From Mucilaginibacter saanensis (GTDB taxonomy: Bacteria; Bacteroidota; Bacteroidia; Sphingobacteriales; Sphingobacteriaceae), in the NCBI RefSeq assembly GCF_014200575.1, contig NZ_JACHBZ010000010.1, positions 62,001 through 126,000 on the forward strand: a stretch of DNA of 64,000 bases. The letters run 5' to 3'. The notes below the pieces were generated by a model. The model did no database searches. It saw nothing but the letters and a program-made list of their open reading frames with translations, and was not told where the DNA came from. The position numbers and the translations under genes were made by a program. Shown one piece after another: positions 26,249 through 32,452 of the stretch (position 1 is its first letter; each line of letters starts with the position of its first letter).

Positions 26249-26941
26249 TTATTGGTTATACACAAACTTATACCCTATTCCTCTTACGGTTTGCAGGTAT
26301 TGCGGTGAGTCGGCATTGGTTTCAATTTTTTTACGCAAGCGCACTATATGCATATCCAGGGTGCGGGTATTTACATCGGCATTGTAGCCCCAAACTTCCA
26401 TCATCAGTTCCTCGCGGTTGATCACCTTGTTCTTATTTTTCAGAAAATAAAGTAATATCCTGTTTTCCAGTATCGTCAGTTCAATTTTACGACTATCCCT
26501 GATGAGCAGGTGGGTATTGGGCAGGTGCTCCATATTGGCAAAGCGGTATGATTCCGTTTTTTCGCTGTTTAACGAAAACTTGATCTTATTATCAATCATA
26601 GCCACCAATACGTCCATATTAAACGGCTTGGTAATATAGTCAGACACACCAAAGTTATAAGCCTCAATCTTATCAACATCCTGGGCTTTTGCCGTCATCA
26701 TGATAATGAGTTTATCATACCCTTTTTCCCTGATGTTATTACACACCTCTGAGCCGGGCTTGCCGGGCAGCATCCAGTCGAGCAAAACAATGTCGGGCTG
26801 TTCTTCCAGAATCATATTTTCGGCATCGTCGCCGTTGTCGGCTTCCAATACTTTATATCCTTCTGATTGCAAACGCTCTGCCACCAGGAAACGCAGGTTT
26901 TCATCATCTTCAACCAGCGCAATTTTAATTTCTTTGTTCAT
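26249..26941 (-). CDS. OmpR-family response regulator
   Basis: A 230-residue two-component regulator. The receiver domain has the acidic pocket E11/D12/D13, phospho-acceptor Asp55 (IVLLDWMLPG), Thr in MMTAKAQ and Lys in TKPFN. The C-terminal winged helix has ENRILLYFLKNKNKVINREELM and NTRTLDMHIVRLRKKIE...LQTVRGIGYKF. It is the last gene of a minus-strand unit, three bases after the kinase stop. It resembles the RprY type of Bacteroides, so it should be a DNA-binding output for the adjacent kinase. Confidence 0.95.
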   Translation of the reverse strand: MNKEIKIALVEDDENLRFLVAERLQSEGYKVLEADNGDDAENMILEEQPDIVLLDWMLPGKPGSEVCNNIREKGYDKLIIMMTAKAQDVDKIEAYNFGVSDYITKPFNMDVLVAMIDNKIKFSLNSEKTESYRFANMEHLPNTHLLIRDSRKIELTILENRILLYFLKNKNKVINREELMMEVWGYNADVNTRTLDMHIVRLRKKIETNADSPQYLQTVRGIGYKFVYNQ

Positions 26942-26944
26942 ATC

Positions 26945-28588
26945 TTAATTTTCGTATGGAAGCGTAACTATAAATTCTGAGCCCTCATTAACTTTACTGT
27001 GAACGGTTATTTCACCATCCATAAAATTAACCAGTTCTTTACAAAAAGCCAAACCCAAACCTACACTCCCGTTCTGGTTATACTGGTTTTCTATCCTGTA
27101 AAATTTCTTAAAAATGTTATTCAGTTCCTCCTTAGGGATACCTATACCTTTATCAACAAACGAAAACACAATATTCCTCTTTTCATGTGTAATATTTATG
27201 TTAAGCTCTTTTTTTTGCGGATGTGAGTATTTGTAGGCATTTTCAATCAGGTTTTGGAAAACGCTGCCCAAAAGCACCGGATCTGTATAAAAAATATGTA
27301 CCCCGCTCACTTTGCAGTGCAATTTAAAATCGGGATATTTAATTTTAAAGGTTTCGGTATAACGGCTTACAAAATCATCAACCACTATCTCCTCTTTTTT
27401 CAGTGTAATTGATTTATTTTCGAGTTGGGTAAATGACAGCAGCTTATTCATCAGGTCATTCAGCTTATCGGCCTCTTCGTCCAGGATTTTACCGTAATGT
27501 TTACGCTGCCTTTCAGTAAGTTCACCATCGCCCCGCAAATTGGAGCCGGCAATTTTTATTACGCTTACCGGCGTTTTAAACTCATGTGTAAAGTTGTTTA
27601 TAAAATCGTACTGCAACTTAAACAGTTTAAGATTCACGTTCAAATTACGGTAAATAAGCCATGCTATCAACACCAGGAAAAGCGATATCAGCAACACAAT
27701 TGCTCCAATGGGCATAAACCTGCGGTTAATTTCGGCAGTAAGATACCCCTGCTCAGAGCTGAAAAATAATTTATAATCGGAAAAGGCACCCGGAAAAGAT
27801 ACTTCCGTGATCATTTTATCGCCCTGGCTATCAACCGGATCATATACTACTGGTTGTATCGACACGGTTTGGTATAATTCATGGCGCGAGTTTTTAACCT
27901 TCAGCAAATACGGATCAAGCTGAAAGCTCATCATATTTTGTTTGTAGGATGCCGAAACCGTATTATGGTGTTGCAGCTCACGGTATATTTTAACGTCTTC
28001 ACGTCGTAATATATTAGAGTAAGTGATTTTATCGGGCTTTACATCCCAGAACGTTTTAAACAATTCATCCTGACTTGACACGCGCGACGTATCAGAAAAA
28101 GCAATATAGTTACTGAGCTTAACTGCCATCTCCTTAAAGTCAGATTCATCAGCCGGGCGGGTTTGTTTATTGCCATGCACCCGGTGCCCTTGATACCAAT
28201 ATTGGTATACCGATTTAACCGATATATCCAAGTTGTTTTTGCGAACAGTGATATGGGTTTTGCTGCCTATAAGCACATCGTAAAAAGTGATTTTTTTTAC
28301 AAAAGCATAATCATGAAAAACAGAGGCTGCATATTTAGCTGCCGACGCAGAATCTAAAAAGCCCTGATACGAGGTTATTTCGGGCACCTTATTCTGAAAA
28401 AACTCATTATATGGTTTTATAGTTTGCTCCAATACCTCTATTTTTTTGGAAGCAAACTCATTCTCTACATATTTTGAGGTAAGGTTATAAGATATAAACA
28501 ATGCAACCACAAAAGTTACCGATATGAGCACCAGGAATATGACGATCAGCGAAAAGTTTTTACGGTAAACATTTTTATGTACAGGCAT
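26945..28588 (-). CDS. Sensor histidine kinase, RprX-like
   Basis: A 547-residue membrane kinase: one helix at ~13-33, a ~250-residue periplasmic sensor region, a second helix (~GAIVLLISLFLVLIAWLIY), then directly the dimerisation domain with phospho-His335 in FTHEFKTPVSVIK. No HAMP domain is visible. The ATPase domain has the N-box NLIENAYKYS, G1 DKGIGIP and G2 GSVGLGLAF. It starts eight bases after the upstream peptidase-like gene and ends three bases before the regulator, so all three are translated from one message. The signal is unknown. Confidence 0.94.
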   Translation of the reverse strand: MPVHKNVYRKNFSLIVIFLVLISVTFVVALFISYNLTSKYVENEFASKKIEVLEQTIKPYNEFFQNKVPEITSYQGFLDSASAAKYAASVFHDYAFVKKITFYDVLIGSKTHITVRKNNLDISVKSVYQYWYQGHRVHGNKQTRPADESDFKEMAVKLSNYIAFSDTSRVSSQDELFKTFWDVKPDKITYSNILRREDVKIYRELQHHNTVSASYKQNMMSFQLDPYLLKVKNSRHELYQTVSIQPVVYDPVDSQGDKMITEVSFPGAFSDYKLFFSSEQGYLTAEINRRFMPIGAIVLLISLFLVLIAWLIYRNLNVNLKLFKLQYDFINNFTHEFKTPVSVIKIAGSNLRGDGELTERQRKHYGKILDEEADKLNDLMNKLLSFTQLENKSITLKKEEIVVDDFVSRYTETFKIKYPDFKLHCKVSGVHIFYTDPVLLGSVFQNLIENAYKYSHPQKKELNINITHEKRNIVFSFVDKGIGIPKEELNNIFKKFYRIENQYNQNGSVGLGLAFCKELVNFMDGEITVHSKVNEGSEFIVTLPYEN

Positions 28589-28596
28589 AAGGGGGC

Positions 28597-30495
28597 TTAA
28601 GGTTTAACCCGCATATTGTCGTCCAGGAATTTTTCTATCTCGGTGTACATTTCCATGCGGTTATGCTCACTTCTGAAAAAAGCCCGCTCATTGGGTTTTA
28701 AAAAATATTTCACGTCAACATTACGCTTACGCAACTCACGTACAAACTGATTTAATTCACTAATGTTTGCCCGCTGGTCTTTTGCACCCTGAAAAATGAT
28801 TAAAGGAACCTTTATTTTATCGGTATGAAATACCGGCGAAATGGCCCTTAACTGGTCGGCATCGGTTTCTGGATTTCCAACCATTTCATATATCATTTTT
28901 AAGTATGGCTTAAGAAACGGGGGCGCATCTTTAATATACGTAAAAAAGTTAATGAGCCCGTACTGCACAACGGCACACTTATAAAGCTCCGGATGGAACG
29001 ATACACCATAAAGCGCCGAAAAACCGCCAAAGCCACCACCAAAAATGGCTATTTTTTTAGGATTGGCTATTTTTTGATCAATAAGCCAGTGCACACCGTC
29101 GGTTATGTCATTTTGTATTTTTCCACCTACCTGTTTAAAACCAGCGCTTCTGAAGGATTTCCCGTAACCATTTGACCCGCGATAATTTACCTGAAAAACG
29201 GCATATCCCCTATTGGCCAAAAACTGTACACGCTCATCATATCCCCATGAGTCGCGGCTGCGCCAGGGGTCATCATGCGGTATAACTACCACCGGCAAAT
29301 TTGTTCGTTTATTGCCCAGCGGTAAGGTTAAATATCCGCTGATCAGCAAACCATCACGTGCTTTGAAAGCTATAGGCTGCATGGTGCACAGCTCGTCAGG
29401 CACCAAACCTGAGTTAATATCACCCAACTTGGTGAGCTTATTAGTATTTTTTTCGTACAGGTAATATGAGCCCGGATTACGATCGGTATAAGTGTTCAGG
29501 ATAAACTTATTCTCGGTGCTGTCGCGGTCAATCACCCGTATTTCGTTGCCTTTAAGTTGCGGCCTCTGTTCTAAATTATGATATAAACTTTCAATATCAG
29601 GCGTTAAAAAGTGCTTACGCGGCTTTGCCTCTTCCCAGGCGGCAAACTCCACCCGGCGCCTATTTTTCGAGTAATCAACATACAGTACGTCTGCTTTGCT
29701 ACAGCTAAAAATTGTTTTTTGCTCCTTGCCATCTTCCGCATTAATTTCAACCAGTGCCGTTTTATCGCGATTAACATTTGAAAGCGCGTAGAAGTAGTTT
29801 TTAACCCCGGTAAAGGCAATTGGCCTTACGGAGTTTTTAAAGTTGTTTTCGATGATAGTTTTAAACGGTGCATTATCGTTGGGACGGTATAAAATAGTTT
29901 CGTTTACCCCGTCTGATGCCCTGACAAGCCGTATTTTGCCGTCAGCATCCGGAAACCACTCGGTAATATTACCCGGATTTATCAGGTATGGGGTTAACTC
30001 ACCGGTTTTAATATTCAAGCGATAAATGTCAAAATTCCCGGGGTCGCGTTTATTCATCTTGATAGTTATCAAATCAGGCTGTTGCTTATTCCGGTTAACC
30101 AGGCTCACCCTCACCTTTTCCTGCGACAGAATGATGCGGATTTTAAAGGTAGATACATCAATGGCGTACATTTTAAACGTATCAAAATCAATAATATCCT
30201 GACTAAAAACCAGCTGATTATTAAAAGTCCAGAAATAATCGCCCCGAACGGATGAATCATCAAAAGATGTGGCCATACGTTCCTTTCCGTCGGCCAATGA
30301 TTGTATAAAAAGGTTCTGTTTATCTTTATATGGCTTTAGGTACGATACGTATTTACCATCAGGAGATATTTTGTAAAAGCTTTTTTCGGGGGTCTTAAAA
30401 AAATCAATAATAGGTATCTGCCTTACTTTATTCTTGCAGGAACACAAAGTAATTATAAAAGCAATAAGCAGTAGATATCTCAATCGGCCCAACAT
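28597..30495 (-). CDS. S9 (prolyl oligopeptidase)-like lipoprotein lacking catalytic Ser and His
   Basis: A 632-residue protein with a lipoprotein signal (lipid Cys20 in TLCSC), a beta-propeller-like N-terminal half and an S9 alpha/beta-hydrolase C-terminal half (VVIPHDDPWRSRDSWGYDERVQFLANRGYAV, NYRGSNGYGKSF). The nucleophile motif, normally GGSxGG, reads FGGGFGGFSALYG, with Gly488 (GGC) in place of Ser. The DEGHGF segment carrying the catalytic His reads NERAFF, with Ala605 there. The Asp (GAKDQRAN) is kept. The frame is intact, so this is a pseudoenzyme, not a broken gene. I chose the ATG at the signal peptide over a GTG five codons upstream. It heads an operon with a kinase and regulator. 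Confidence 0.9.
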   Translation of the reverse strand: MLGRLRYLLLIAFIITLCSCKNKVRQIPIIDFFKTPEKSFYKISPDGKYVSYLKPYKDKQNLFIQSLADGKERMATSFDDSSVRGDYFWTFNNQLVFSQDIIDFDTFKMYAIDVSTFKIRIILSQEKVRVSLVNRNKQQPDLITIKMNKRDPGNFDIYRLNIKTGELTPYLINPGNITEWFPDADGKIRLVRASDGVNETILYRPNDNAPFKTIIENNFKNSVRPIAFTGVKNYFYALSNVNRDKTALVEINAEDGKEQKTIFSCSKADVLYVDYSKNRRRVEFAAWEEAKPRKHFLTPDIESLYHNLEQRPQLKGNEIRVIDRDSTENKFILNTYTDRNPGSYYLYEKNTNKLTKLGDINSGLVPDELCTMQPIAFKARDGLLISGYLTLPLGNKRTNLPVVVIPHDDPWRSRDSWGYDERVQFLANRGYAVFQVNYRGSNGYGKSFRSAGFKQVGGKIQNDITDGVHWLIDQKIANPKKIAIFGGGFGGFSALYGVSFHPELYKCAVVQYGLINFFTYIKDAPPFLKPYLKMIYEMVGNPETDADQLRAISPVFHTDKIKVPLIIFQGAKDQRANISELNQFVRELRKRNVDVKYFLKPNERAFFRSEHNRMEMYTEIEKFLDDNMRVKP

Positions 30496-30633
30496 GGTAA
30501 AACGCCCCACTTTATTATTCTGGTTAAATTACTTAAATAAGTCAATGTTATCAAAATGTCACTACAATTTTACCCGTTTATAACATTATATAAATAATAG
30601 AATAAACGCGTTAAAGCATAAATATTAATTGAT

Positions 30634-30641
30634 TATTTTTG
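30634..30641 (+). promoter_or_regulatory. Candidate -7 box abutting the TPR gene
   Basis: TATTTTTG matches TAnnTTTG and ends five bases before the chosen ATG. If used, the transcript would start at or very near the start codon. No -33 TTG at the expected distance. Confidence 0.35.
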
Positions 30642-30646
30642 AGCTG

Positions 30647-32452
30647 ATGAGGGGTTTATTTAGTTCTATTATAATTGTTATTGCCATGAGCAGCAGGCTT
30701 TTTGCGCAGGATAACGAGTTGCAGCTGGCCAAACAATACAACACCAACGGCGAGCCGCAAAAAGCCCTTGAAATATATCAGAAATTATATAAGCAAGATA
30801 ACGAAGCTTATTATTCTTACTATATCAATACCTTACTCAGCCTTAAAAAATTTGACGATGCCGAAAGCGCAACCAAAAAACTGATACGCAAACACCCCCA
30901 GGCACATGAATATCAGATTTTGCTGGGCACTGTTTATACCCAGCAAGGCAACCTTAACAAAGCTGATGCTATATACGATGGTCTCATACAAAACCTGCCT
31001 GCCGACAGAAACGAAATAGCCATGCTGGCGGGCCAGTTTTACCAGAGCGCCAACCTGGAGTATGCCATAAAAATATTTTTGCAGGGCCGTAAAGTATTAA
31101 ACAACAACGATGCCTTTACTTATGAACTGCTTAACCTTTACCGTTTTAAAAGAGATAAGGCTGCCTTAACCAAAGAATACCTGAATTTTTTACCCTCAAA
31201 CCCCGACTTTATTACCCAGGCAGAAAACGCCTTTGCCAACGTATATGAGGGCGATGCAGACTATAATATGCTCAAAGGGGCCTTGCTTAGGCGCATACAA
31301 AAAGATCCGCAGCAAATTGTTTATACCAATTTGCTTACCTGGCAATATATGCAGCAAAAGGAGTTTGACCTGGCCCTTAACCAGGAATTGGCCATGAGTC
31401 GCCGGCAAAATGATGATGGCAATAGCATTTATGAGCTGTGCCGTACCTTAACCACCAATGAGGCCTATGATGCGGCCATACGCGGCTATGAGTACATTAT
31501 AAGCAAGGGTAAAACGCTGCCATTGTATATACCCGCAAAAATTGAGCTCATCAATACCAAAAACTTAAAGATAACGTCAGGCAAATACCTGCCCGCAGAC
31601 CTCCTGGGGCTTGAGCAGGATTATACCGACCTGCTTACCGAATTTGGCCGTAACACCAATACGGTTTTTGCCATGCAAAAGCTGGCGCAACTGCAGGCTT
31701 TTAAACTGCACAAGTTTAACGATGCACAAAAACTGTTGGAGGATGCAGTAAATGTCCCGAACATCAGGCCCGAACTGTTGGCTTCCTGCAAGCTTGATCT
31801 TGGCGATGTATACCTGATCAACAACCAGCCCTGGGAAGCTACCCTGCTGTACAGCCAGGTTGAAAAAGATTTTCCGAATACGGATATCAATCAGGATGCT
31901 AAATTCAGGAATGCCAAGCTGGCTTATTATACCGGCGATTTTACCTGGGCCAAAGGACAACTTGATGTGTTAAAGGCTGCCACTTCACAGCTGATTGCCA
32001 ATGATGCACTTAATTTACAACTGCTTATTGATGATAATACCGCAGGCGATAGCACAGGCGGCGCATTAAAGATATATGCCCGCGCCGATCTGCACATATT
32101 TGCCGAGCAGCCCGATAAAGCCGTTATAACCCTGGATAGCATCGATAAAAAATTCCCTAATAACAGCCTGAGTGACGATATCCTGATGTCGAAATCGCGC
32201 ATACTGATCCAACAAAAAAATTATACCAATGCTGTGCCGCTGTTAAAGAAAATTGCTGATGAACACCCTAACGATCTGTGGGCCGATGATGCAGTTTTTA
32301 TGCTGGGCGATATTTATGAAAACCGGCTTGCCGATAAAGCCAGCGCACAGGTGTGGTATCAGAAAATTATAACCAACTACCCCGGCAGCCTTTGGATAAA
32401 TGAGGCCCGTAAGCGTTTCAGAACTTTAAGGGGCGATAAGCCCGATTCCTAA
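30647..32452 (+). CDS. Secreted tetratricopeptide-repeat protein
   Basis: A 601-residue protein with a signal peptide (MRGLFSSIIIVIAMSSRLFAQ) and TPR-like helical repeats along its whole length. Clear units include LAKQYNTNGEPQKALEIYQKLY near the start, LGTVYTQQGNLNKADAIYDGLI, and near the end LMSKSRILIQQKNYTNAVPLLKKI and FMLGDIYENRLADKASAQVWYQKI. The ATG is six codons inside a frame that opens with TTG. Such proteins scaffold complexes in the periplasm or at the outer membrane. The partner is unknown. It is divergent from the pseudo-peptidase operon. Confidence 0.88.
   Translation: MRGLFSSIIIVIAMSSRLFAQDNELQLAKQYNTNGEPQKALEIYQKLYKQDNEAYYSYYINTLLSLKKFDDAESATKKLIRKHPQAHEYQILLGTVYTQQGNLNKADAIYDGLIQNLPADRNEIAMLAGQFYQSANLEYAIKIFLQGRKVLNNNDAFTYELLNLYRFKRDKAALTKEYLNFLPSNPDFITQAENAFANVYEGDADYNMLKGALLRRIQKDPQQIVYTNLLTWQYMQQKEFDLALNQELAMSRRQNDDGNSIYELCRTLTTNEAYDAAIRGYEYIISKGKTLPLYIPAKIELINTKNLKITSGKYLPADLLGLEQDYTDLLTEFGRNTNTVFAMQKLAQLQAFKLHKFNDAQKLLEDAVNVPNIRPELLASCKLDLGDVYLINNQPWEATLLYSQVEKDFPNTDINQDAKFRNAKLAYYTGDFTWAKGQLDVLKAATSQLIANDALNLQLLIDDNTAGDSTGGALKIYARADLHIFAEQPDKAVITLDSIDKKFPNNSLSDDILMSKSRILIQQKNYTNAVPLLKKIADEHPNDLWADDAVFMLGDIYENRLADKASAQVWYQKIITNYPGSLWINEARKRFRTLRGDKPDS

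Follow-up and report, generated by a model that had tools for sequence, protein, structure and literature searches.

Regulatory pseudopeptidases of the S9 family are already known in vertebrates, where the S9B proteins DPP6 and DPP10 modulate Kv4 channels; in DPP10 the serine is replaced by glycine within the motif GKGYGG (PMC4350108). The lipoprotein analyzed here is encoded in a window of 64,000 nucleotides (the whole stretch of DNA that was analyzed) from Mucilaginibacter saanensis, and it resembles DPP6 and DPP10 in combining a propeller with a hydrolase domain, in being anchored to a membrane, in having lost the nucleophile and in its presumed non-catalytic role, exerted on a membrane protein. 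DPP10 differs in that it keeps its histidine and aspartate, is a single-pass type II membrane protein rather than a lipoprotein and comes from animals, and its structure (4wjl) is only weakly similar in sequence to the window protein (E 7e-6). The cold-adapted acylaminoacyl peptidase 5l8s, also an S9 protein, has intact serine and histidine motifs, unlike the window protein, and we know of no kinase that accompanies it. Full-length homologues from other families of the class (e.g. L160, L182), 31-44% identical, likewise differ from the window protein in that 24 of 25 keep the triad, with a GxSYGG-type motif and EGHGF, and in that no such kinase is encoded beside them.

With respect to kinases and their accessory proteins, LuxP and TorT have the periplasmic-binding-protein fold and not that of S9, and WalH and WalI are encoded together with WalK. 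PMC8534201 describes LuxP as a separate periplasmic protein that reads a ligand for the kinase LuxQ, lists TorT with TorS, and presents WalH and WalI as membrane-tethered extracytoplasmic proteins that tune the kinase WalK; it gives the sensor of LuxQ as PDC and that of TorS as all-helical, whereas the sensor of the window kinase has no significant match in Pfam. WalH and WalI contact WalK through transmembrane helices, whereas the anchor of the window lipoprotein is a lipid, so that any contact with the kinase would have to be periplasmic. Among the titles and abstracts listed by searches of the open-licence literature, none deals with this operon. Here a bacterial S9 pseudopeptidase belongs to a nearly universal operon of the Sphingobacteriaceae, a large environmental family (soil and water), with a change from enzyme to pseudoenzyme that was repeated in several lineages and for which intermediates are available.

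The lipoprotein, the kinase and the regulator

The gene for the S9-type pseudopeptidase lipoprotein lies on the minus strand at 28597..30510 and encodes 637 aa from a GTG start codon, with an alternative ATG at 30495. Residue numbers are counted here from the GTG; subtracting 5 yields the ATG-based numbering (Gly488, Ala605). The original prediction had placed the three genes within 26249..30495, with eight bases between the first two and three between the last two, and both coordinates and spacing are right: the S9 gene lies at 28597-30495 (from the ATG), the kinase gene at 26945-28588 and the regulator gene at 26249-26941, all on the minus strand. The protein has a lipobox cysteine at position 25, a beta-propeller spanning approximately residues 40-370 and an alpha/beta-hydrolase domain spanning approximately residues 371-637. 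It belongs by descent to Peptidase S9 (PF00326; 139.4 bits versus a curated Pfam cut-off of 22.6), and its predicted model has the propeller and alpha/beta-hydrolase architecture, aligning in Foldseek with 5l8s over 639 alignment columns for 637 residues. This acylaminoacyl-type chain is the closest solved structure (sequence E 2e-33; Foldseek TM 0.77/0.81 over the whole length) and ranks above the S9B chain of DPP10. Two narrower identities were rejected using NCBIfam equivalog cut-offs: Dpp5 (NF053518; 70 bits versus 900) and the Atxe2 lasso peptide isopeptidase (NF033523; 44.9 bits versus 400). A hydrophobic stretch followed by a cysteine was identified by rule in 93 of 95 kinase-linked rows versus 14 of 24 unlinked ones, and a stricter lipobox pattern in 74 of 96 linked rows (96 including L229) versus 11 of 24.

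The residues of an active S9 peptidase are not all present: Gly493 and Ala610 stand in place of the serine and histidine of the Ser-Asp-His triad, and Asp578 is kept. Both losses had been proposed from the window, together with retention of the aspartate and of the reading frame, and the alignment with 5l8s bears this out, pairing GGSYGG with GGGFGG and DEGHGF with NERAFF and locating the aspartate in QGAKD, within an open frame. The structure prediction that had been suggested as a check agrees as well. In the AlphaFold model (pLDDT 86.3, pTM 0.86, with confidence dropping around residues 441-460 and 521-560), residue 493 lies between strand 482-492 and helix 494-505, residue 578 follows strand 570-575, and residue 610 lies between strand 600-605 and helix 615-633. 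As modelled, the three residues occupy the elbow and the loops where the triad is generally located in the S9 hydrolase fold, and an intact triad elsewhere in the fold is unsupported by the model and the alignments.

Downstream, the sensor histidine kinase (547 aa; 26945..28588, minus strand) presents HisKA and HATPase domains with every box of the kinase core intact, the H, N and G boxes being invariant across 47 aligned kinases, and the response regulator (230 aa; 26249..26941, minus strand) presents REC and Trans_reg_C domains, as expected of an OmpR/PhoB-type two-component system. The kinase is HAMP-less, as had been claimed: the Pfam HisKA match starts at residue 328, no HAMP domain was found, and in the kinase model a single helix spans residues 280-352. 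Among the named Bacteroidota systems, identification of the kinase as PorY or PhoR (86.7 bits versus 350 and 97.7 versus 500) and of the regulator as PhoB or RprY (133.4 bits versus 270 and 126.2 versus 370) was rejected using the NCBIfam cut-offs. The sensor domain on the periplasmic side of this kinase (aa 36-290; 27719..28483, minus strand) is an orphan: its best Pfam hit, at 14.5 bits, stays below the cut-off of 23.4, sequence comparison with the PDB yields nothing up to E 10, and no Pfam family matches more than one of 31 sensor members, even at E 0.1. The top-ranked Foldseek matches of the whole kinase are mostly kinase cores. When 395 genomes of the phylum were scanned with a profile of the 31 sensor sequences, 11 gave a match, each with one copy and each from the Sphingobacteriaceae. 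The single kinase sequence as query (1e-35) matched 23 of 295 genomes of the class: in 10 family genomes the match covers nearly the whole protein, and in the 13 others it begins at residue 248 or later and covers only the kinase core.

Spread of the lipoprotein and its linkage to the kinase

The S9 lipoprotein was identified in 289 of 301 Sphingobacteriaceae genomes (E 1e-60). After exclusion of two partial loci below 300 bits (L325, L342), loci sharing identical residues 400-560 were merged into 233 family entries, 30 of which (L356, L386-L414) are gene fragments ending before the active site, partly from genomes already counted; the remaining 203 are distinct family proteins that show the active site. 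Asking, as the original prediction had advised, whether homologs stand beside the kinase and regulator, we scored kinase adjacency where a locus left 1.2 kb or more of room and regulator adjacency where it left 2.4 kb. The kinase directly adjoins the S9 gene in 199 of 199 family loci, and the regulator adjoins in 136 of 136. Among the 25 S9 relatives from other families of the class, such a kinase is adjacent in 0 of 24 and the regulator in 0 of 17. Two of those 17 loci, L184 and L198, contain another kinase match; in L184, which encodes a triad-intact relative, a regulator and a kinase follow 0.7 and 1.4 kb downstream, respectively, just 27-30% identical to the window pair, an arrangement that may be coincidence. 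Diverged second S9 copies, 32-36% identical, are located elsewhere in family genomes; L229, examined among them, belongs to genus g16, is unlinked and has an intact triad. Genus g16 is probably Sphingobacterium and g14 probably Pedobacter.

Upstream of the S9 gene, in divergent orientation, lies a gene for an exported TPR-repeat protein, at 30629-32452 of the window. This neighbor is present in 78 of 78 loci in the range L009-L086, in 32 of 40 in the range L116-L155 and in 0 of 7 large g16 loci, and in g16 the S9, kinase and regulator genes stay together though the TPR gene is absent.

Twelve family genomes lack the S9 lipoprotein at the threshold used. Two of them, G153 and G262, have the kinase at the edge of a contig, with the last part of the S9 gene still recognizable in G153; another five present kinase-core matches only, including G067, a genome scored 100% complete. 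The remaining five (G010, G033, G049, G060, G070) are among the six genomes of g11; in each, kinase and regulator are complete, the S9 gene is missing, and the divergently encoded TPR gene is the immediate upstream neighbor of the kinase. Hence, the kinase can manage without the lipoprotein there. Rooting the kinase tree on g5 and g8 puts g11 close to its base, so that loss and primitive absence of the S9 gene are indistinguishable. The S9-less g11 loci (L337-L341) come from reduced genomes of 1.7-2.0 Mb.

Repeated loss of the active site under purifying selection

The triad is broken, by loss of the serine, the histidine or both, in 180 of the 203 family proteins showing the active site (including L069, which is truncated before the histidine but lacks the serine), and intact in 23, which belong to genera g6, g8, g13, g15, g18, g21, g22 and g25 and are encoded in the same operon. 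The single other-family relative with a broken triad, L198, has Phe/Asp/Arg in the triad positions and no such kinase adjacent, and represents a separate loss. Within Mucilaginibacter, the histidine is absent in 90 of 90 distinct rows and the nucleophile position holds Gly in 64, Arg in 19 and Ser in 7 of them, with a further 9 rows from similar genomes standing outside this tally. The histidine position is occupied within one genus by A, F, G, K, N, R, S, T, W or Y; the aspartate is kept in 231 of 233 aligned rows. The original prediction had reasoned that relatives keeping the catalytic motif in the same operon would make this a recent loss in a single strain. Such relatives exist, as the 23 intact proteins demonstrate, but the second step does not follow, and a single-strain loss is rejected by the absence of the histidine throughout the genus and by its loss in at least six linked lineages. 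On the sequences compared, the loss of the active site is old and genus-wide and extends beyond this genome.

The order of events was approached by parsimony on a rapidly built tree (120 lipoproteins, trait columns masked), in which linked and unlinked proteins fall on two sides of a split with a support of just 12. Histidine was lost in at least six linked lineages (g14; g7, g20 and g12; one g21 row; g4 and g16; Mucilaginibacter and similar genomes; g5), and additionally in L198 outside them, and none of the costs tried produced a regain; since a second His-less g21 row (L313) had been thinned out before the tree was built, six losses are a minimum for this sample. Serine changes 12 times within the linked rows. 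Equal-cost parsimony was uninformative for serine (1 loss, 12 regains), while costing regain double yields 12 linked losses and 2 regains, and forbidding it yields 21 losses, of which one falls outside the linked group. Rows in which the serine is gone and the histidine kept occur in g2, g18, g19 and g21, suggesting that the serine goes first. A test of association between linkage and loss was powerless, with only one pair found by the paired test: linkage arose once, which leaves no independent replicate with which linkage and loss could be tested as repeated events.

The intact proteins may preserve the original function: a working peptidase, with the kinase responding to its substrate or product, and with later losses elsewhere ending only cleavage and leaving binding in place. 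The 23 intact members in the common operon and the Ser-less, His-keeping members of four genera fit this scenario. Its weak point is that hydrolase-domain positions conserved in unlinked relatives are altered in the intact linked members also: T499 is replaced by Ala and D515 by Ser in 18 of 18 linked triad-intact members, both being conserved in 18 unlinked relatives (those left of 24 rows after exclusion of the six most divergent). Cleavage may thus have changed early. We regard this account as possible, if somewhat doubtful; it is largely compatible with a role of the lipoprotein in sensing, and the probabilities that we attach to the two overlap.

Residual hydrolytic or transferase activity through other residues, such as Ser498 or the kept Asp578, is much harder to sustain. 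The near-universal aspartate would suit it, as would a serine at 498 in 97 of 99 Mucilaginibacter-like rows, but the g14 rows (35 of 35) have Ile or Val there and the two g15 rows Cys, the model puts position 498 within the helix that follows the elbow, and the histidine position is highly varied in one genus; we deem such activity improbable. Less credible still, to the point of being negligible, is neutral decay of a redundant peptidase. Both catalytic residues are gone, and three family copies outside the genus (G001, G076, G230) have one stop within the matched range. Against decay, which is already refuted for the genus, the Mucilaginibacter copies listed contain no inner stop, the S9 gene is retained in nearly every family genome, and dN/dS of the lipoprotein is 0.016-0.065 in 18 of 18 pairs, all lacking the histidine, in line with the original claim of loss without decay. 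Although dS is above 1 in many pairs, the 8 in which it is lower than that yield 0.016-0.048; the kinase is similar (0.012-0.082 in the 17 pairs with a value). The S9 lipoprotein is under strong purifying selection. Since its cutting residues have been lost repeatedly and the protein is nevertheless strongly conserved, it is probably a sensing or binding partner and not an enzyme.

Rate covariation, the promoter element and the proposed co-sensor

Covariation of branch rates was computed for 102 taxa, using 150 of 201 branches for the comparison of the propeller with the kinase sensor. This was the strongest cross-protein pair tested overall (rho 0.42, bootstrap 0.27-0.55), exceeding hydrolase-sensor (0.20), kinase core-regulator (0.29), propeller-regulator (0.11) and the propeller against the two halves of the TPR protein (0.13 and 0.03), with within-protein controls at 0.30-0.54. 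On branches inside the genus only, propeller-TPR (0.31) is about equal to propeller-sensor (0.29), and with smaller baselines TPR-propeller reaches up to 0.37 versus 0.49 for propeller-sensor, so part of the signal may be common to exported proteins. The covariation lends moderate support to a contact between propeller and sensor.

We consider it fairly probable that the pseudopeptidase lipoprotein is a dedicated accessory subunit, or co-sensor, of the adjacent kinase. The clam formed by propeller and hydrolase would take up a peptide or another envelope ligand without cleaving it, and the propeller would contact the orphan periplasmic domain of the kinase, a step to which the rate covariation gives statistical support. 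The state of the ligand would then alter the kinase through the continuous helix from TM2 to DHp, with no HAMP domain in between, the direction of the signal being our assumption. The trees suggest a history in which coupling to the kinase and regulator arose on a single ancestral branch, when the S9 peptidase was still active, and in which several losses of the triad followed, often beginning with the serine. The sensing unit put forward in the original prediction is supported in part, by loss without decay, by the conserved coupling and by the propeller-sensor covariation, whereas strict necessity of the lipoprotein is contradicted by the five g11 genomes. Chances appear about even that the locus represents a new type of bacterial receptor, in which an S9 protease fold has turned into a ligand-gated lipoprotein co-sensor of a kinase with an undescribed sensor domain, and in which active, Ser-lost and Ser+His-lost stages are extant in one family. 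Were this true, the living stages would make the change from enzyme to receptor traceable stepwise, and a real kinase contact would provide both a tractable enzyme-to-receptor system and a function for the orphan sensor domain.

A 17-bp element, GTAAAATTGTAGTGACA (30557..30573, minus strand), made up of two similar 6-mers 11 bp apart, is a candidate site for the regulator. Promoter-like boxes recognized by eye, TTTG (30552-30555) and TAATTTAA (30524-30531), lie 20 bp apart on the minus strand (30524..30555) and resemble what we take to be the Bacteroidota -33/-7 promoter pattern. With at most one mismatch, the element is present in 66 of 69 loci of one Mucilaginibacter set and in 37 of 54 of a second set of the same genus, some of the other 17 loci beginning inside the gene. 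Per genome of the genus, it occurs once in 36 of 41, twice in one and not at all in four, three of these being 71% complete or less. In 30 of 30 sites examined, it lies upstream of the S9 start codon at a distance of 57-70 bp. Variants such as GTAAAAATAAGGTTGCA are located at the same place in most of 39 g16 rows, and g14 and g21 present no clear counterpart when 4 to 8 mismatches are allowed. A pair of similar 6-mers with this spacing would suit a regulator of the OmpR/PhoB type, which makes autoregulation likely. Judging from this arrangement, the two-component system is probably autoregulated, and the regulator would adjust the amount of the sensory pair, probably by way of this element in front of the operon.

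The same element can be read differently, with the lipoprotein as the output of the system: the regulator would set its amount, and it would serve on its own in a peptide-binding or chaperone-like role in the periplasm without contacting the kinase. The position of the S9 gene, first in the operon behind a conserved element, accords with this reading, as does the occurrence of kinase and regulator without the S9 gene in g11. It fits poorly with a propeller-sensor covariation that exceeds propeller-regulator and both propeller-TPR values over all branches (though not TPR-propeller within the genus), and with a kinase that adjoins the S9 gene at every family locus scored, the exceptions being just diverged second copies. 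We judge an output role rather unlikely and retain the co-sensor as the preferred reading. A large regulon defined by the element was also rejected: at up to three mismatches, the genome of the window contains 31 sites versus 69 in a reversed control, so that solely the operon copy stands out. One weak copy in this genome, with three mismatches, is intergenic and precedes a reading frame of 330 aa (L381, C14:32509-32525).
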